NCBI GenBank assembly: GCA_002813285.1
Contig: PHTZ01000001.1
Location: 4,029,501-4,093,500 of the forward strand
Origin: Flavobacteriaceae bacterium MAR_2009_75
GTDB taxonomy: Bacteria; Bacteroidota; Bacteroidia; Flavobacteriales; Flavobacteriaceae
Reading direction: 5' to 3'
Length of the DNA stretch: 64,000 nt
Of this stretch, positions 51,473-56,925 are shown one piece after another; position 1 is the first letter of the stretch; the number at the start of each line of letters is the position of its first letter. Position numbers and translations under genes: made by a program. A model generated the notes under the pieces. The model did not search any database. It worked only from the letters and a program-made list of their open reading frames with translations, and was not told the origin of the DNA.

Positions 51473-52747
51473 TTATTTAGTGCCGCCTATGATCAACAGT
51501 TCATCCCATTGCGTGGTAAATCTAGGACTGCGGTGCTCTTTGATCAGGGCCCATTCTTTATGACGGTTGCCAACTGTAGCAAGTTTGATTTTATTTTTTC
51601 CGAATTTACCGTTTAGATTATCCAATAGAAAGGTGATGGTGTCAGACTCGATTTTGTGTTGGGTATCGAACAAATTTGTTTGAATATCTGTACGATTTAC
51701 TAATTGCAGTAAATTTACACCCACTTTTTTATATCGATAGCCTGGCTTGTAAATCTGTTTTAACCCCCTAAGAGCTTCCTTTGTCAATTTAATGGTACTG
51801 TCTGTAGGTGTGTCTAACGTTATTGTAATATTGTTTCTATACTGCTTATCGATTTCACTATGTTGATTGGTCTGCAAAGAAATGTCGATTTGAGATGCTG
51901 CACTATGTTGTTGTCTTAAAAGGTCTGCAACTTCTGCTACATAGTAACTACAAGCTTCCTCAATAAGACTATAAGATGTCAATTTGAATCCGAACGATTT
52001 TGCTGTTCCAATGCCCTTTTTCGCTTTTGGCTTTTCTACTATTTCTAAGCAAGGTATATTGTTCAGTTCTCTCCAAAGCCGTTCACCTATTACCGTCATT
52101 TCTTTTCTAACCCAAGCTACTGGCATATTGGCAAAATCTAAGGCCGTACTTATTTTTTTATCCTCGAGTCTGAGCGCATGTTTTCTGCCAATGCCCCAAA
52201 TATCTTTGACCTTAAGATTTTGCAATAATTGTTTTCGTTTTACTTCTGAATCCACGACATACACATTATCATTCTCAGCTATTTTTTTTGCATACTTATT
52301 GGCTAATTTAGATAGTGATTTTGTTTTGGCAATGCCCACTCCGACAGGTATTCCGGTGTTTTTATATATGGTGTTCTTAATGTTATGGGCCAAACCGGTA
52401 TAGCACTCATTTTGATGAATACTCAAATCAACAAAACTTTCATCTATGCTGTATTCTTCGACACGAGGTGAGAAGGTTTTTAAGGTATCCATAACCCTTC
52501 GAGACATATCATTATACAGCGTATAATTTGAAGAAAAATACGTGACATTACTTTTATCTAACAATTTCTGTATTTTAAAAACCGGCTGAAACATCGGAAT
52601 TTCCGTTAGAGCCTTTGCTTCTTTATTCGCAGCAATGATGCACCCATCGTTGTTGCTTAAAACAACTACTGGCATTTTCTTAAGGTCAGGTCTAAAAACC
52701 TGTTCGCAAGAGGCATAGAAGCTATTACAATCTACTAAAGCAATCAT
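51473..52747 (-). CDS. umuC: Y-family DNA polymerase V catalytic subunit UmuC
   Basis: The 424-residue protein has the Y-family active site: [15 protein letters not shown] with the first Asp, [15 protein letters not shown], and [11 protein letters not shown] with the Asp-Glu pair. Finger/thumb and little-finger domains follow to the usual UmuC length. It carries out error-prone translesion synthesis. Its start overlaps the umuD stop by 4 bp (ATGA), so translation is coupled to the unusual UmuD. Confidence 0.93.
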
Positions 52748-53127
52748 AAAACAGATTTAATGATATAAGTGATTACTCCCCATATATTTATTTCAGATAT
52801 ATATTCTTTGCCAATTCTGATAACACTAAAATTGTCATTGATAGTGGCTACAACAAGTTGATTTGTTCTGGCGGATAACGACTTATCGACTATAAGAACA
52901 TCATTTTTTAAAATATTAAAATCTTTAAACTCGTCATCTGCTACCTTTATGAAGAAAGTTGCGGATGAATTAGTAACAAGAACCTCGTTCAAATCAATTC
53001 TTGGCTCGCTGTAATGCGTTGCAGGACTAGAAAAACCAGTTTGAGTAGGGCGTTTAACTCTGTAGTTATTTTCCGTTTTTTTTATTAAATGAACTTTTGA
53101 ATCACTCATGTATATTGCACTTATCAT
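52744..53127 (-). CDS. umuD: UmuD-like S24 protein lacking the catalytic Ser and Lys
   Basis: The 127-residue protein aligns with UmuD from [19 protein letters not shown] (30-48) through [10 protein letters not shown] (75-84) to [12 protein letters not shown] at the end. The nucleophile motif GDSM is DDEF here (64-67, Glu66 in place of Ser), and the general-base Lys of FTVKKL is Ile103 in FSVIRI. A loop of about 16 residues before the last strands is also missing. It cannot self-cleave by the known mechanism, though TG before FSSPA keeps the cleavage-site neighbourhood. An internal Met7 is an alternative start. It is probably a structural UmuC partner in fixed form. Confidence 0.82.
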
Positions 53128-53158: not shown

Positions 53159-53794
53159 GTAATCAGAAAATGATACCATAGCGGCTTACATTTTCTTAAA
53201 GCAGATAAGGCTATGTAAGCAACGGAACCATAATCTAAAAAACAAACACAGTTACTTTTATTGGATATTTTCCAAATATCAGGATATTTACCTGATTTAG
53301 GTATCGTTTAAGAAAAAGATTATTAACAAAATTTCACTTTAAATAGTAGTTGCAGTTAGCCGTATTTAGATATGCTCAAAGTTTTCTTTAAGCATCTAAT
53401 TTGCATTGAAATTGAATAGAGCCAACAACATTCGGTATGTAGGTTTGGTTATTTCTAGAGCCATACTATTATGTAAACCAAAGATTTTAATCACTAAATC
53501 ATTGAATTTTGGAGTATAAGATGGATTGATAATACCAATTGAGAAGATACTGTTTAAGCATTGAACCTATAAATTTATATGCGGCCAGAGGCATAATAAA
53601 GGTTTGGTAGCACACTCTAAATATTAAGCGGGAGTGTGTTGTAATTTATGCTAAAATTGATTTCTACTGGTTCATTTTTTATAATTTGAGTTGTCGTTCA
53701 GAGCTTCTATATTTCTTACGAAAGCACTTTTTTTTGTTGGATCAATTCGCTTTAAATAAAAAATTGACAATAGTCGTTAACTCCAAAATCAAAA
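53159..53794. other. 636-bp region without genes between umuD and the nrd terminator
   Basis: No open frame of credible composition is present on either strand. It contains a dyad ATCAGG-N7-CCTGAT (53278-53296) and a 7-bp hairpin CACACTC/GAGTGTG (53611-53617 with 53632-53638). Neither can be tied to a gene; the umuD promoter must lie in the left part. Confidence 0.4.
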
Positions 53795-53856: not shown

Positions 53857-55647
53857 TTAAGCTTCACAGCTCGTACATTCTTTCTTTTGCCTGAATTTTT
53901 GTGCGGCATTCATACTGTGTTGATAGTACATTGATTTCAGGCCGAGTTTCCATGCGGTCACGTGAATTTTATTAATCTCTTTCACAGGCATTTCAGGGTG
54001 GACAATTATATTCAACGATTGCCCTTGGTCGATGTGGTGTTGCCGTGCAGCTGCTTGATACACGATATCTAGTTGGTCAAGCTCTGAGTATGTCTTGAAA
54101 ACGGCTTTTTCCTCTTCGGTCAAAAAGTCAAGGTGTTGAACCGAACCATCATGATCTCGAATGTCTCTCCAAACCTCTGGGAGGTTCATATCTTTTTCTT
54201 CTAAAAGATCCATCAGAAACGGATTCTTGATAGTAACCTTAATTTTGGCAATATCTTTCACATAACAGTTTGACCAAATGGGTTCGATGCCCTGAGAAAC
54301 CTGGCCTAAAATAAACGCAGATGATGTTGTGGGTGCTATTGCGTTTAACGTCGCGTTACGTCTACCATAGGTTTTTAGAACTTCGGGTTCACCAAAACGT
54401 TCGGCCAATTCTTCCGAAGCTTTGTATGAGCGTTGCTTTATTTCTTTAAATATTTCGTTGTTGAGATTGTATGCCTCTTGACTATCGAACGCCAATCTTT
54501 TTGATTGGAGTAAAGAATGCCAACCTAGGGCACCTAAACCTAAAGCTCTGTTATCTTTTGCAAAATTATAAGCTCTTTCCATAAAGAGAAAAGTCTGTCG
54601 ATCTTCTCTATTTTCAGAATCTCGATAGGCTTCAAGCTTCTCAATAAATTCGGTGATAATGGCATCTAAGAAATATACCATAGTTTCAACGGCATCGGTA
54701 TCTTTCCATTTGTCATAATGCATTAGATTAATGCTAGAAAGCACACACACGAATGACCAATTGTCATTGGAGGGTAACATAATTTCCGTACAAAGGTTAC
54801 TGGCATGAATACGATGGTCTTTTTCTTGATAAACTTCCGAAGCGCCATTATTGGCATTATCTGTAAAGAAAATATAGGGGTAGCCCATTTCTCCTCTACG
54901 CTGCAACACTTTCGCCCATACGGTACGTTTCTCTGTGTCGCCATCAATCATTTCTTGCATCCATTGGTCGGTAACCGTAACCCCATGGGTAAGTTGCTGT
55001 ATCGGGTTACCTTCGGTACCTATCTCCAAGAATTCTAAAATATCTTTATGGTCAATAGGAAGGTAAGGGGAGAAGCGACCGCGCCTTACGGAGCCTTGGC
55101 TCACGACATCGACCATTGATTCGAATAATTGCATTATATGAACGGCACCTGATGCTTGCCCATTATTTTTAACGGCTGACCCACGGGGCCTGATTTTTCC
55201 AAAATAACCAGAAGTACCACCACCGAGTTTCGACATCATTCCGATTTCTGATTGGGTATAAAGAATGTTGCCCATATCATCGTCAACATGAGAGCCAAAG
55301 CAACTAATCGGTAACCCTCTTCTTTTACCAAAATTAGACCAGACCGGTGAAGCTAAAGAGAAAAAACCTTCTGACATATAATGATAGAACTTATCGGCAT
55401 AGCCAGGCATTTTCAAAATTTGCTCGGCTCTTTCACCAATCTCGCGAATACGGCCTTCGGGGGTTACACCTTCGGTAAGGTAACCAGATGACAAAAATTT
55501 ACGACTGTTTTCATTTAACCATTCGAAACCTTCGTTTTCAGATTTTTTATTTAGTTCTGCCAAGGCATTTTTTCGAGCATTGACCAAATCATGGGTGGTT
55601 TCATCTCGTTGGTCAATAGTCTGTTGTAAATCTGTTTTATTCTCCAT
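53857..55647 (-). CDS. nrdA: ribonucleoside-diphosphate reductase, catalytic (alpha) subunit without ATP-cone
   Basis: The 596-residue protein has the class I catalytic core: redox Cys in LPISCFGS (Cys116) and FVCVLSS (Cys301), active-site Asn284, Cys286 and Glu288 in NLCTEIMLPS, and a C-terminal CTSC pair that shuttles electrons. It is shorter than standard NrdA because the N-terminal ATP-cone is missing; that regulatory domain is on the small subunit encoded 3 bp upstream. It reduces ribonucleotides to deoxyribonucleotides. Confidence 0.95.
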   Translation of the reverse strand: MENKTDLQQTIDQRDETTHDLVNARKNALAELNKKSENEGFEWLNENSRKFLSSGYLTEGVTPEGRIREIGERAEQILKMPGYADKFYHYMSEGFFSLASPVWSNFGKRRGLPISCFGSHVDDDMGNILYTQSEIGMMSKLGGGTSGYFGKIRPRGSAVKNNGQASGAVHIMQLFESMVDVVSQGSVRRGRFSPYLPIDHKDILEFLEIGTEGNPIQQLTHGVTVTDQWMQEMIDGDTEKRTVWAKVLQRRGEMGYPYIFFTDNANNGASEVYQEKDHRIHASNLCTEIMLPSNDNWSFVCVLSSINLMHYDKWKDTDAVETMVYFLDAIITEFIEKLEAYRDSENREDRQTFLFMERAYNFAKDNRALGLGALGWHSLLQSKRLAFDSQEAYNLNNEIFKEIKQRSYKASEELAERFGEPEVLKTYGRRNATLNAIAPTTSSAFILGQVSQGIEPIWSNCYVKDIAKIKVTIKNPFLMDLLEEKDMNLPEVWRDIRDHDGSVQHLDFLTEEEKAVFKTYSELDQLDIVYQAAARQHHIDQGQSLNIIVHPEMPVKEINKIHVTAWKLGLKSMYYQHSMNAAQKFRQKKECTSCEA

Positions 55648-55650
55648 AAT

Positions 55651-56925
55651 TTAAAAAAGGTCGTCGCTGGTTATACTTTGTGTTCTCTTGCTATAGTTGA
55701 TGGATCGCTTTACGAAAAAGTCTCCATGTTTTGTTCCGATGATTTCATCATCGAACCATTCGGTCTGCTCAATCAATGATTGATCGATATCGAAAATTTT
55801 TGATATGCCTATACTTTCCAACGAGTTGTTGAAACGATTCTTAATGAACTCGTTGATAACATCTTTAGGTAAAAAGTCAAGTTCGCCTTCTTCAAAAATC
55901 CAGTTGACAATTTTACTTTCGGCGTTAAAAGCTTCTTTGCAAATGTCTTGTATGACTGAAGAGTAGTCATCGTCAAACCACTCCGGGTTCTCATTTTTAA
56001 TAATATTGATAAGGTCGATACCGAAATCGCCATGAATTTGCTCTTCTTTAGAAGTAGCCTCCACTACATTTGATATACCTTTTAATACATTTTTATGCTT
56101 GTTAAAGGCCATAATGATCAAAAACTGAGAAAACAACGAAACATGTTCGATGAACAGAGAGAATAAAAGAATTGACTCTGCATATTCTTTATCATTTTCA
56201 CTTTTTGCATTTTTTAGGGCCGTTTCAAGATAATGTACCCGCTTCATAATTACGGGTTTCTTTTTCAAGGTTTCGAACTCACGGTTTAGGCCTAAAATTT
56301 CCAACAAATGTGAATACGCATCATGATGCCTTACCTCACTTTCGGCAAATGTGGCACCTACAGAACCAATTTCGGGTTTGGGCAAACGTTGATATATATC
56401 GCCCCAAAAAGTCTTTACGGCAACTTCGATTTGCGAAATGGCTAGAAGGGTATTTTTGATTGCACTTCGCTCTACCTCGCTCAAACCTGATTTAAAATCT
56501 TGAATATCGCTCGTAAAATTAAATTCGGTGTGAATCCAGTACGAGTGTCTTATGGCAGCAACGTATTCATATAGTTGCGGATATTCGTATGGTTTTAAGT
56601 TCACCCTTTTTTCAAATACGTTGGTTTTTCGAATTTGAGCCCTTTTGTTTCTATAGATGATATAAGCTTTCGCCACTTCGTGAAACTCACTTTCCATGAG
56701 TGTGGTCTCAACAACATCTTGAACCTCTTCGATGGTAGGAATATAGTTTTCATCCAGACTTTTACGTTTCAATAATATATCATGAACCTTGTCTGCCATA
56801 GGTTGGGCATCACTAATTTGGCCCTGATCTACCGCGGTCATAGCTTTGGTGATGGCGTTCGTAATCTTATGAATGTCAAAAGGTTGGGAGGTATAGTCCC
56901 GTTTAATAATGTGGGTGATTTGCAT
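55651..56925 (-). CDS. nrdB: ribonucleotide reductase radical-generating (beta) subunit with N-terminal ATP-cone
   Basis: The 424-residue protein has an ATP-cone at about 3-93 (ITHIIKRDYTSQPFDIHKIT, then VQDVVETTLMESEFHEVAKA) joined to the ferritin-like NrdB fold. Metal-ligand positions are visible as Glu197 and His200 in ESEVRHHDAY, a further Glu in IEHVSLF, and Glu and His in KEEQIHGDFG; Tyr204 is at the radical-tyrosine position. This matches the NrdB group known from Leeuwenhoekiella, where the cone on beta controls activity, and the dimanganese class Id enzymes of flavobacteria, in which the Tyr is not oxidised. First gene of the leftward operon. Confidence 0.93.
   Translation of the reverse strand: MQITHIIKRDYTSQPFDIHKITNAITKAMTAVDQGQISDAQPMADKVHDILLKRKSLDENYIPTIEEVQDVVETTLMESEFHEVAKAYIIYRNKRAQIRKTNVFEKRVNLKPYEYPQLYEYVAAIRHSYWIHTEFNFTSDIQDFKSGLSEVERSAIKNTLLAISQIEVAVKTFWGDIYQRLPKPEIGSVGATFAESEVRHHDAYSHLLEILGLNREFETLKKKPVIMKRVHYLETALKNAKSENDKEYAESILLFSLFIEHVSLFSQFLIIMAFNKHKNVLKGISNVVEATSKEEQIHGDFGIDLINIIKNENPEWFDDDYSSVIQDICKEAFNAESKIVNWIFEEGELDFLPKDVINEFIKNRFNNSLESIGISKIFDIDQSLIEQTEWFDDEIIGTKHGDFFVKRSINYSKRTQSITSDDLF

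Follow-up and report, generated by a model that had tools for sequence, protein, structure and literature searches.

A conserved UmuD lineage of Flavobacteriaceae that appears to have lost self-cleavage and is mostly encoded behind candidate SOS operators

The umuDC locus of the window

The DNA analyzed here is a stretch of 64,000 nucleotides from Flavobacteriaceae bacterium MAR_2009_75, referred to below as the window. It carries an umuD-like gene and, directly downstream, umuC; the features of this locus are summarized in Table 1. Beside the pair, at 53857-56925 on the minus strand, lie two frames that we take to be the large and small subunits of a class I ribonucleotide reductase, the latter with an N-terminal ATP-cone-like stretch.

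Table 1. Features of the umuDC locus, in positions of the window.
Feature	Position	Strand	Details
umuC, Y-family polymerase	51473..52747	-	424 aa; equivalents of Asp6, Asp101 and Glu102 and a Q-x-N-L-F stretch present
umuD/umuC overlap, 4 bp	52744-52747	-	reading frames
umuD-like gene, predicted to be proteolytically dead	52744..53127	-	127 codons/aa; likely true start 53109, then 121 aa
Ile103 codon at the position of catalytic Lys97	52819..52821	-	alignment to E. coli UmuD
Glu66 codon at the position of catalytic Ser60	52930..52932	-	alignment to E. coli UmuD
Thr30-Gly31, corresponding to the scissile Cys24-Gly25 bond	53035..53040	-	alignment
Candidate SOS operator GGA-N5-TCC, exact (GGATATTTTCC)	53263..53273	.	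sole GGAWWWWWTCC in the window
Second candidate operator, one mismatch (GGATATTTACC), 19 bp on	53282..53292	.	pattern search

A first-pass annotation had described this UmuD as lacking both catalytic residues and one loop, and as coupled to an intact, overlapping UmuC. Alignment to E. coli K-12 UmuD (from the NC_000913 record) and the reading frames bear out each of these points. The SGDSM of E. coli reads ADDEF in the window protein (G58-D-S60-M to D-D-E66-F), Lys97 is replaced by Ile103, and 17 loop residues of the E. coli protein (102-118) are without a counterpart. The annotation had missed a further change, that of the P1 residue from Cys24 to Thr30; the scissile bond is Ala-Gly in most cleavable Bacteroidota UmuDs of our comparison set. 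The protein belongs to Peptidase_S24 (PF00717; 1.9e-9, 37.7 bits vs a cut-off of 23.3), which is the only Pfam match at E 0.1 in its 127 residues (29-106), with no N-terminal DNA-binding domain. Its best PDB match is E. coli UmuD (3e-16), and it scores 84.8 bits, below the cut-off of 110, against the NCBIfam UmuD model NF007621 ('autoproteolytic subunit'). The AlphaFold2 model of the protein is closest to UmuD' (Foldseek 3.9e-6 to 1ay9; VIA-align Z 10.1 over 90 residues at 2.7 A), with a mean pLDDT of 68.3 and a poor N-terminal third, so that it is uninformative on the arm. The true start is probably at 53109, since no genus but the window's has the first six codons and a Met stands at residue 7 in every aligned row of the short type described below (in L009 and L020 after trimming of longer frames). 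The UmuC partner scores 369.8 bits against NCBIfam NF002955, below the cut-off of 431, and this is still its best model. The window's genome has four Y-family polymerases by Pfam.

A sequencing error, which the annotation had allowed for, is rejected as the cause (G001, L031): an independent genome of the same genus, G001, shares the Ile and carries Gly where Ser would be, which makes an error unlikely. Following a check that the annotation had proposed, we searched the window's genome for a second, canonical umuD and found none; its two S24 proteins are the window UmuD and the SOS repressor, and a second umuD is rejected as well.

A short-type UmuD clade in the family

UmuD-like matches at E 1e-5 were found in 170 of 299 genomes of the family. 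The short type, defined as every match with E 2.5e-18 or better, is present in 32 of the 299, the window's own included. As a canonical set we used 38 family UmuDs from 40 fetched regions, 2 of which were short; rows L070 and L071 entered this set as open frames without a start, and L031, a repeat of L002, was left out of counts. The alignment of flavobacterial UmuDs that the annotation had called for gave a consistent result. None of the 32 short-type rows has both Ser60 and Lys97, as against all 38 canonical UmuDs; Ser60 is present in 7 short rows and Lys97 in 3, never together. P1 is Thr in every short row and Ala (37) or Cys (1) in the canonical set. Most short rows (at least 28 of 32) have gaps at residues 102-118, which are seen in at most 4 canonical rows.

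Across the phylum, 3 of 395 genomes carried the short type; all three belong to this family and are separated from the remaining matches by a gap in E-value from 2.4e-50 to 2.0e-29; an order-level sample of 296 genomes gave the same three. In the tree, short-type UmuDs occupy one side of a branch (100/100), as do their UmuC partners (100/99, 31 rows). A search of viral contigs for the short type returned only one match of 22 residues (L127), and tblastn matches of the window protein were all below 60% identity, both to phages (46 records) and, among the 5000 records listed, to plasmids. The annotated plasmid and phage rows among the matches listed are named UmuD, S24 peptidase or error-prone repair protein.

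All 32 short-type frames are free of stop codons. Conserved residues of the type include TGF, ATHY and the C-terminal WG-Y-I, with Thr24-Gly25-Phe26 and Thr31-His32 invariant in the clade, while the former catalytic columns vary (entropies of 2.58 and 2.81 bits, which rank 31 and 19 among 121 columns). Values of dN/dS, computed with a simple Nei-Gojobori script, were 0.108, 0.402, 0.031, 0.107, 0.045 and 0.140 for six pairs of short-type UmuDs, a seventh pair being saturated; the value of 0.40 belongs to L006/L008 and is based on ten changes. For UmuC, dN/dS was 0.03-0.13 in five pairs. Judged by these comparisons, the dead umuD is a conserved, maintained subfamily rather than a one-off. The annotation had treated the loss of the dyad as a local oddity, but the subfamily is old, and two other lineages of Bacteroidota offer parallels to it.

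In each of the 32 genomes umuC lies directly downstream of umuD, although that of L020 ends at the contig end; with this one left out, Asp6, Asp101 and Glu102 are kept in all 31 full-length partners. Short-type and canonical flavobacterial UmuCs differ at 15 columns that are fixed to at least 93% on each side. Three of these (402, 404 and 407) lie in the C-terminal tail, reported as the primary UmuD'-binding site (PMC6511836). A canonical UmuD is also present in 6 of the 32 short-type genomes, and none was found in the other 26. As to gene order, umuC precedes umuD, the reverse of the usual arrangement, in 19 of the 38 canonical Flavobacteriaceae rows (L035, L043, L048, L050, L054-L057, L059-L066, L069-L071).

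Dead UmuDs in other Bacteroidota lineages

Two further groups of dead UmuDs, f4 and f24, were found beside UmuC relatives of the class and among the phylum matches. They account for 29 rows of 40 regions that were mostly hand-picked (28 of the 29 because the match reached into the arm or had already been shown dead, one for coverage), and 29 of 29 is thus not a rate. The nine f4 rows, from the same class, all have Thr24, Ala60 and Arg97. The 20 rows of f24, which lies outside the class and is called Balneolaeota here solely from a promoter match to the LexA consensus of PMC7739468, all have Thr24; position 60 is Ala in 13, Gly in 4 and Glu, Ser or Asp in one each, and position 97 is Arg in 18 and Cys in 2. 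The loop is kept in all f4 and f24 rows. When plasmids were searched with an f4 and an f24 UmuD, all matches listed were below 60% identity, and the six rows and ten commonest genera listed for each were not Bacteroidota. The f4 genome G440 carries, besides its dead UmuD (L333), a cleavable one beside its own UmuC (L326).

Over 110 rows, E. coli not counted, 61 combine Thr24 with a dead dyad, 48 have a live dyad and no Thr24, and one is dead without Thr24. L361 (f48), among the other 11 picked rows, is also dead; Ser60 and Lys97 are both replaced by Arg, P1 is Ala and position 17 is still hydrophobic, and it may represent a separate, different loss. L304 (G960), which is outside the 110-row set, has Thr at P1 with an intact Ser-Lys dyad and is a possible intermediate.

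A UmuD tree built without the columns of the trait itself joined the short type and f4 (96/85), and the UmuC tree set f24, f4 and the short type apart. A single clade of all dead rows was not rejected for UmuD (p-AU 0.598, the tree so held fitting better) or for UmuC (p-AU 0.349), and we therefore claim neither one nor three origins.

Candidate SOS operators upstream of umuDC

Shuffled windows contain 1.35 GGAWWWWWTCC per window, so the single exact box of Table 1 proves little. Among 40 simulated 64-kb windows, two contained a tandem at the 19 bp spacing, a frequency of 0.05 per 64 kb. The two boxes of the window lie 136-165 bp before the first ATG, compared with 23-48 bp in most relatives. 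Tandem GGA-N5-TCC boxes (total mismatch of at most 1, within 400 bp) precede 24 of the 32 dead operons and 2 of the 38 canonical ones, and an exact single box within 200 bp precedes 26 dead and 3 canonical operons; the cleavable L068 and L053 have GGA tandems. Among the eight dead operons without a tandem at one mismatch or less, five (L004, L006, L007, L008 and L019, the last with one exact box) come from genomes with an additional canonical UmuD. The tandem is found in 23 of the 26 genomes without a canonical UmuD vs 1 of the 6 with one (Fisher p 0.0015, relatedness uncorrected). Four of the five tandem-less operons belong to one subclade, however, and these events are not independent.

The window's genome has six exact tandem matches at five loci, as against none for a reversed control pattern. 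Four of the loci lie upstream of a SRAP-like gene, a radical-SAM-like gene, a Y-family polymerase and an HTH-S24 repressor; the fifth is followed by a small frame and then another Y-family polymerase. The names of the two polymerases and the repressor agree with Pfam, and the SRAP-like and radical-SAM-like genes were read from sequence. The HTH-S24 SOS repressor keeps an AG site, GDSM and VKK. Together these loci (L129-L134) resemble a compact SOS regulon in which the repressor itself has three boxes.

Other candidate boxes stand before the dead operons of f4 and f24. At least one exact CTAA-N5-TTAG was present within 250 bp upstream of 9 of 9 f4 operons, and the cleavable f4 UmuD L326 also has this box; within 300 bp upstream it was absent from all 70 rows of the family set. 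A Balneolaeota-type LexA box, a direct repeat, precedes 16 of 20 f24 rows vs 0 of 38 canonical flavobacterial controls. The pattern was written after the promoters had been seen, and the independent part is that the repeat matches the published Balneolaeota LexA consensus TTACACATATTTTWTACATA (PMC7739468). That source describes predicted LexA sites with EMSA support and a regulon that includes polymerases IV and V. When 76 loci without Thr24, partly overlapping the earlier ones, were scanned for the two Bacteroidetes motifs, either motif was found in 5; in this wider scan the upstream stretch was incomplete for 13 of 81 rows. Since at most three lineages are involved, the link between a dead UmuD and an SOS box amounts to few independent events.

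The arm and its docking residue

Cleavage of E. coli UmuD requires Cys24-Gly25 of the arm to meet Ser60 and Lys97 (PMC5342242), and the arm of UmuD' has been modelled as inserted in UmuC (PMC12926913). At position 17, Leu in E. coli, all 48 cleavable rows have Phe, Leu, Tyr, Met or Ile. A large hydrophobic residue is present there in only 3 of 32 short, 0 of 9 f4 and 0 of 20 f24 rows; the other Thr24 dead rows mostly have Arg, Ala, Lys, Glu, Thr, Gln, Asn or Asp. The number of large hydrophobics in the 14 residues before P1 averages 1.66, 2.33 and 2.50 in the three dead lineages vs 5.04 in cleavable UmuDs. The short clade retains the arm itself, which counts 23-30 residues with P1 included and is basic (mean net charge +2.94, with +2 or more in 28 of 32 rows), while those of f4 and f24 are not notably basic. 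The arm stretch at the start of UmuD' is the best conserved part of the short type. With Ser, Lys, P1 and the hydrophobic residue 17 all lost, self-cleavage is not expected and the arm is probably off the globular domain. A comparable state is reported for the E. coli mutant UmuD 3A (T14A, L17A, F18A), which has full arms, is non-cleavable, holds its arms off the globular domain and has been likened to UmuD' (PMC5342242).

Proposed explanation and its rivals

Our preferred reading, to which we give a probability of roughly 60%, is that the dead UmuD is a conserved, permanently UmuD'-like subunit of Pol V whose control has moved from RecA-driven cleavage to SOS transcription. Its parts differ in strength. 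On sequence grounds the peptidase is predicted to be dead, the dyad and P1 being lost, and the maintenance of the genes, the intact UmuC and the operator-like sites are apparent from the same kind of evidence; from these we infer constitutive UmuD'-like activity, UmuC binding, repressor binding and SOS induction in the window strain. With UmuC, the protein would form the small subunit of a Pol V-type polymerase. It would be UmuD'-like from birth, its conserved TGF-S-x-A-T-H-Y arm engaging UmuC without prior processing, and a transcriptional lock would replace the missing RecA-dependent one, the tandem operator for the cleavable-looking HTH-S24 SOS repressor holding umuDC silent until damage occurs. 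That dead umuDC usually stands behind an apparent DNA-damage switch points to a shift of control from protein to gene, and a UmuD'-like state reached without cutting is favoured by the loss of the docking residue and the conservation of the arm stretch that enters UmuC.

The first-pass annotation had proposed that UmuD is uncoupled from RecA-driven cleavage, which is supported by the absence of the dyad from all 32 clade rows, by the maintenance of the genes and by the intact UmuC. It had also left two outcomes side by side, a permanently inhibitory and a permanently active subunit; the lost docking residue and the SOS operators favour the active one under transcriptional control. An uncut protein of UmuD' shape need not be fully active, however, as two E. 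coli proteins suggest. UmuD-S60A is full-length and non-cleavable and lowers UV mutagenesis (PMC3901139), and UmuD 18, also non-cleavable and proposed to be UmuD'-like, leaves cells only weakly mutable (PMC5342242). Further points that weigh against the preferred reading are the eight dead operons without a tandem, the mismatch and the greater distance of the window's boxes, the small number of lineages behind the link to SOS boxes, the cleavable UmuDs that also have boxes (L326, L068 and L053), the live dyad of L304 beside its Thr24, the dN/dS of L006/L008 and the three short rows with a large hydrophobic at position 17.

The reduced UV mutagenesis of UmuD-S60A (PMC3901139) is also the main argument for a permanently inhibitory subunit, which would hold UmuC in a non-mutagenic or checkpoint state so that the operon slows replication instead of bypassing lesions. 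The short clade keeps a basic arm (+2.94 on average), as this explanation would have it. The hydrophobic docking residue, however, ought to be preserved in an arms-down form, and 58 of the 61 dead rows with Thr24 are without it. In addition, 26 of the 32 genomes yielded no canonical UmuD, so that nothing would ever free their intact UmuC; we regard inhibition as unlikely. Processing in trans, with the arm removed by the S24 domain of the SOS repressor, by a canonical UmuD or by another protease, appears less probable than inhibition. In its favour, every member of the clade keeps the Gly-Phe of the site, the one other S24 protein of the window's genome is an SOS repressor with an intact dyad, and six of the 32 genomes do have a canonical UmuD. 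Against it stand the 26 genomes in which none was found and the P1 residue, Thr in 61 of 62 dead rows vs Ala or Cys in all 48 live rows of the set (L304, outside the set, is live with Thr). Loss of the docking residue would presumably hinder cleavage in trans as well.

That the protein has left Pol V for another job, such as binding DNA or RecA through its basic arm, is slightly less probable again. A net charge of at least +2, seen in 28 of 32 arms, would suit such a role, but the arms of f4 and f24 are not notably basic, umuC is directly downstream in all 32 genomes (L020's cut by the contig end), and three of the 15 nearly fixed UmuC differences fall in the tail described as the UmuD'-binding region (PMC6511836). 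Decay, in which umuD drifts after loss of function and is carried along with umuC, had been named by the annotation as the state that might be found in all relatives. The freely varying catalytic columns and the dN/dS of 0.40 in one close pair, L006/L008, could be read in this way. We reject it as very improbable in view of 32 frames without a stop, the invariant TGF, ATHY and C-terminal WG-Y-I residues, the low dN/dS (0.03-0.14) of the other five pairs and the single well-supported clade.

If the preferred reading of a UmuD'-like subunit under SOS transcription is extended to the other lineages, Bacteroidota may have two kinds of Pol V: one with a cleavable UmuD and mostly without known SOS operators, the other with a UmuD'-like UmuD behind SOS operators that are often tandem. 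The lock would then have passed from the protein to the promoter, possibly on as many as three occasions, and every case would combine Thr at P1 with loss of Ser, Lys and the docking residue. We put this forward tentatively, as somewhat less probable than not.

In the textbook account, bacterial SOS mutagenesis has its safety catch in the cleavage of UmuD. A Pol V that is natural, old and shared by many species yet does without this catch would show it to be dispensable, and would open to experiment the long-standing question of what UmuD cleavage adds to the transcriptional control of a mutator polymerase. It also flags proteins for which the title of the nearest family model, 'autoproteolytic subunit', would be wrong, and it offers a source of natural non-cleavable UmuDs for structural study of the contact between arm and UmuC.

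Comparison with known systems

A small subunit of Pol V is a known kind of protein; what is new is a form, predicted to be proteolytically dead, behind candidate SOS operators. In the parts consulted of the open-licence literature, to which the search was confined, we found no paper describing a natural UmuD without the dyad, and a literature search on P1 substitutions found nothing. The window protein resembles E. coli UmuD/UmuD' in its S24 fold, in the umuD-umuC operon with a short overlap and in the GF-S-x-A arm. It differs from E. coli UmuD in having neither the Ser-Lys dyad nor the 17 loop residues nor a hydrophobic residue at 17, and in the Thr at P1. HumD is a UmuD relative that acts without cleavage, but it is born without the arm that the window UmuD retains, and against the HumD family model NCBIfam NF051876 the window protein scores 60.5 bits, below the cut-off of 120. 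Unlike the Bacteroidetes HTH-S24 SOS regulator and UmuDAb, the window UmuD is without an N-terminal DNA-binding domain.

The YolD/YqjX proteins of the Pol V-like mutasomes of Gram-positive bacteria are likewise described as non-proteolytic, SOS-induced small subunits, with an N-terminal arm modelled inside the Y-family polymerase (PMC6511836, PMC12926913). They belong to a different family, whereas the window UmuD is an S24 homologue; PF08863 (YolD/YqjX) was not listed for it at E of 0.1 or less, in a search that may overlook weak matches. Phage 186 CI and SipA are other natural proteins of the LexA/signal-peptidase fold that have lost catalytic residues; they are described as a repressor and a pilus assembly protein, respectively, neither being a polymerase subunit (PMC12984324). 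The E. coli variants UmuD-S60A and UmuD 3A are also full-length and non-cleavable (PMC3901139, PMC5342242). These two proteins were engineered, whereas the dead UmuD of the flavobacteria is natural, old and common to many species.
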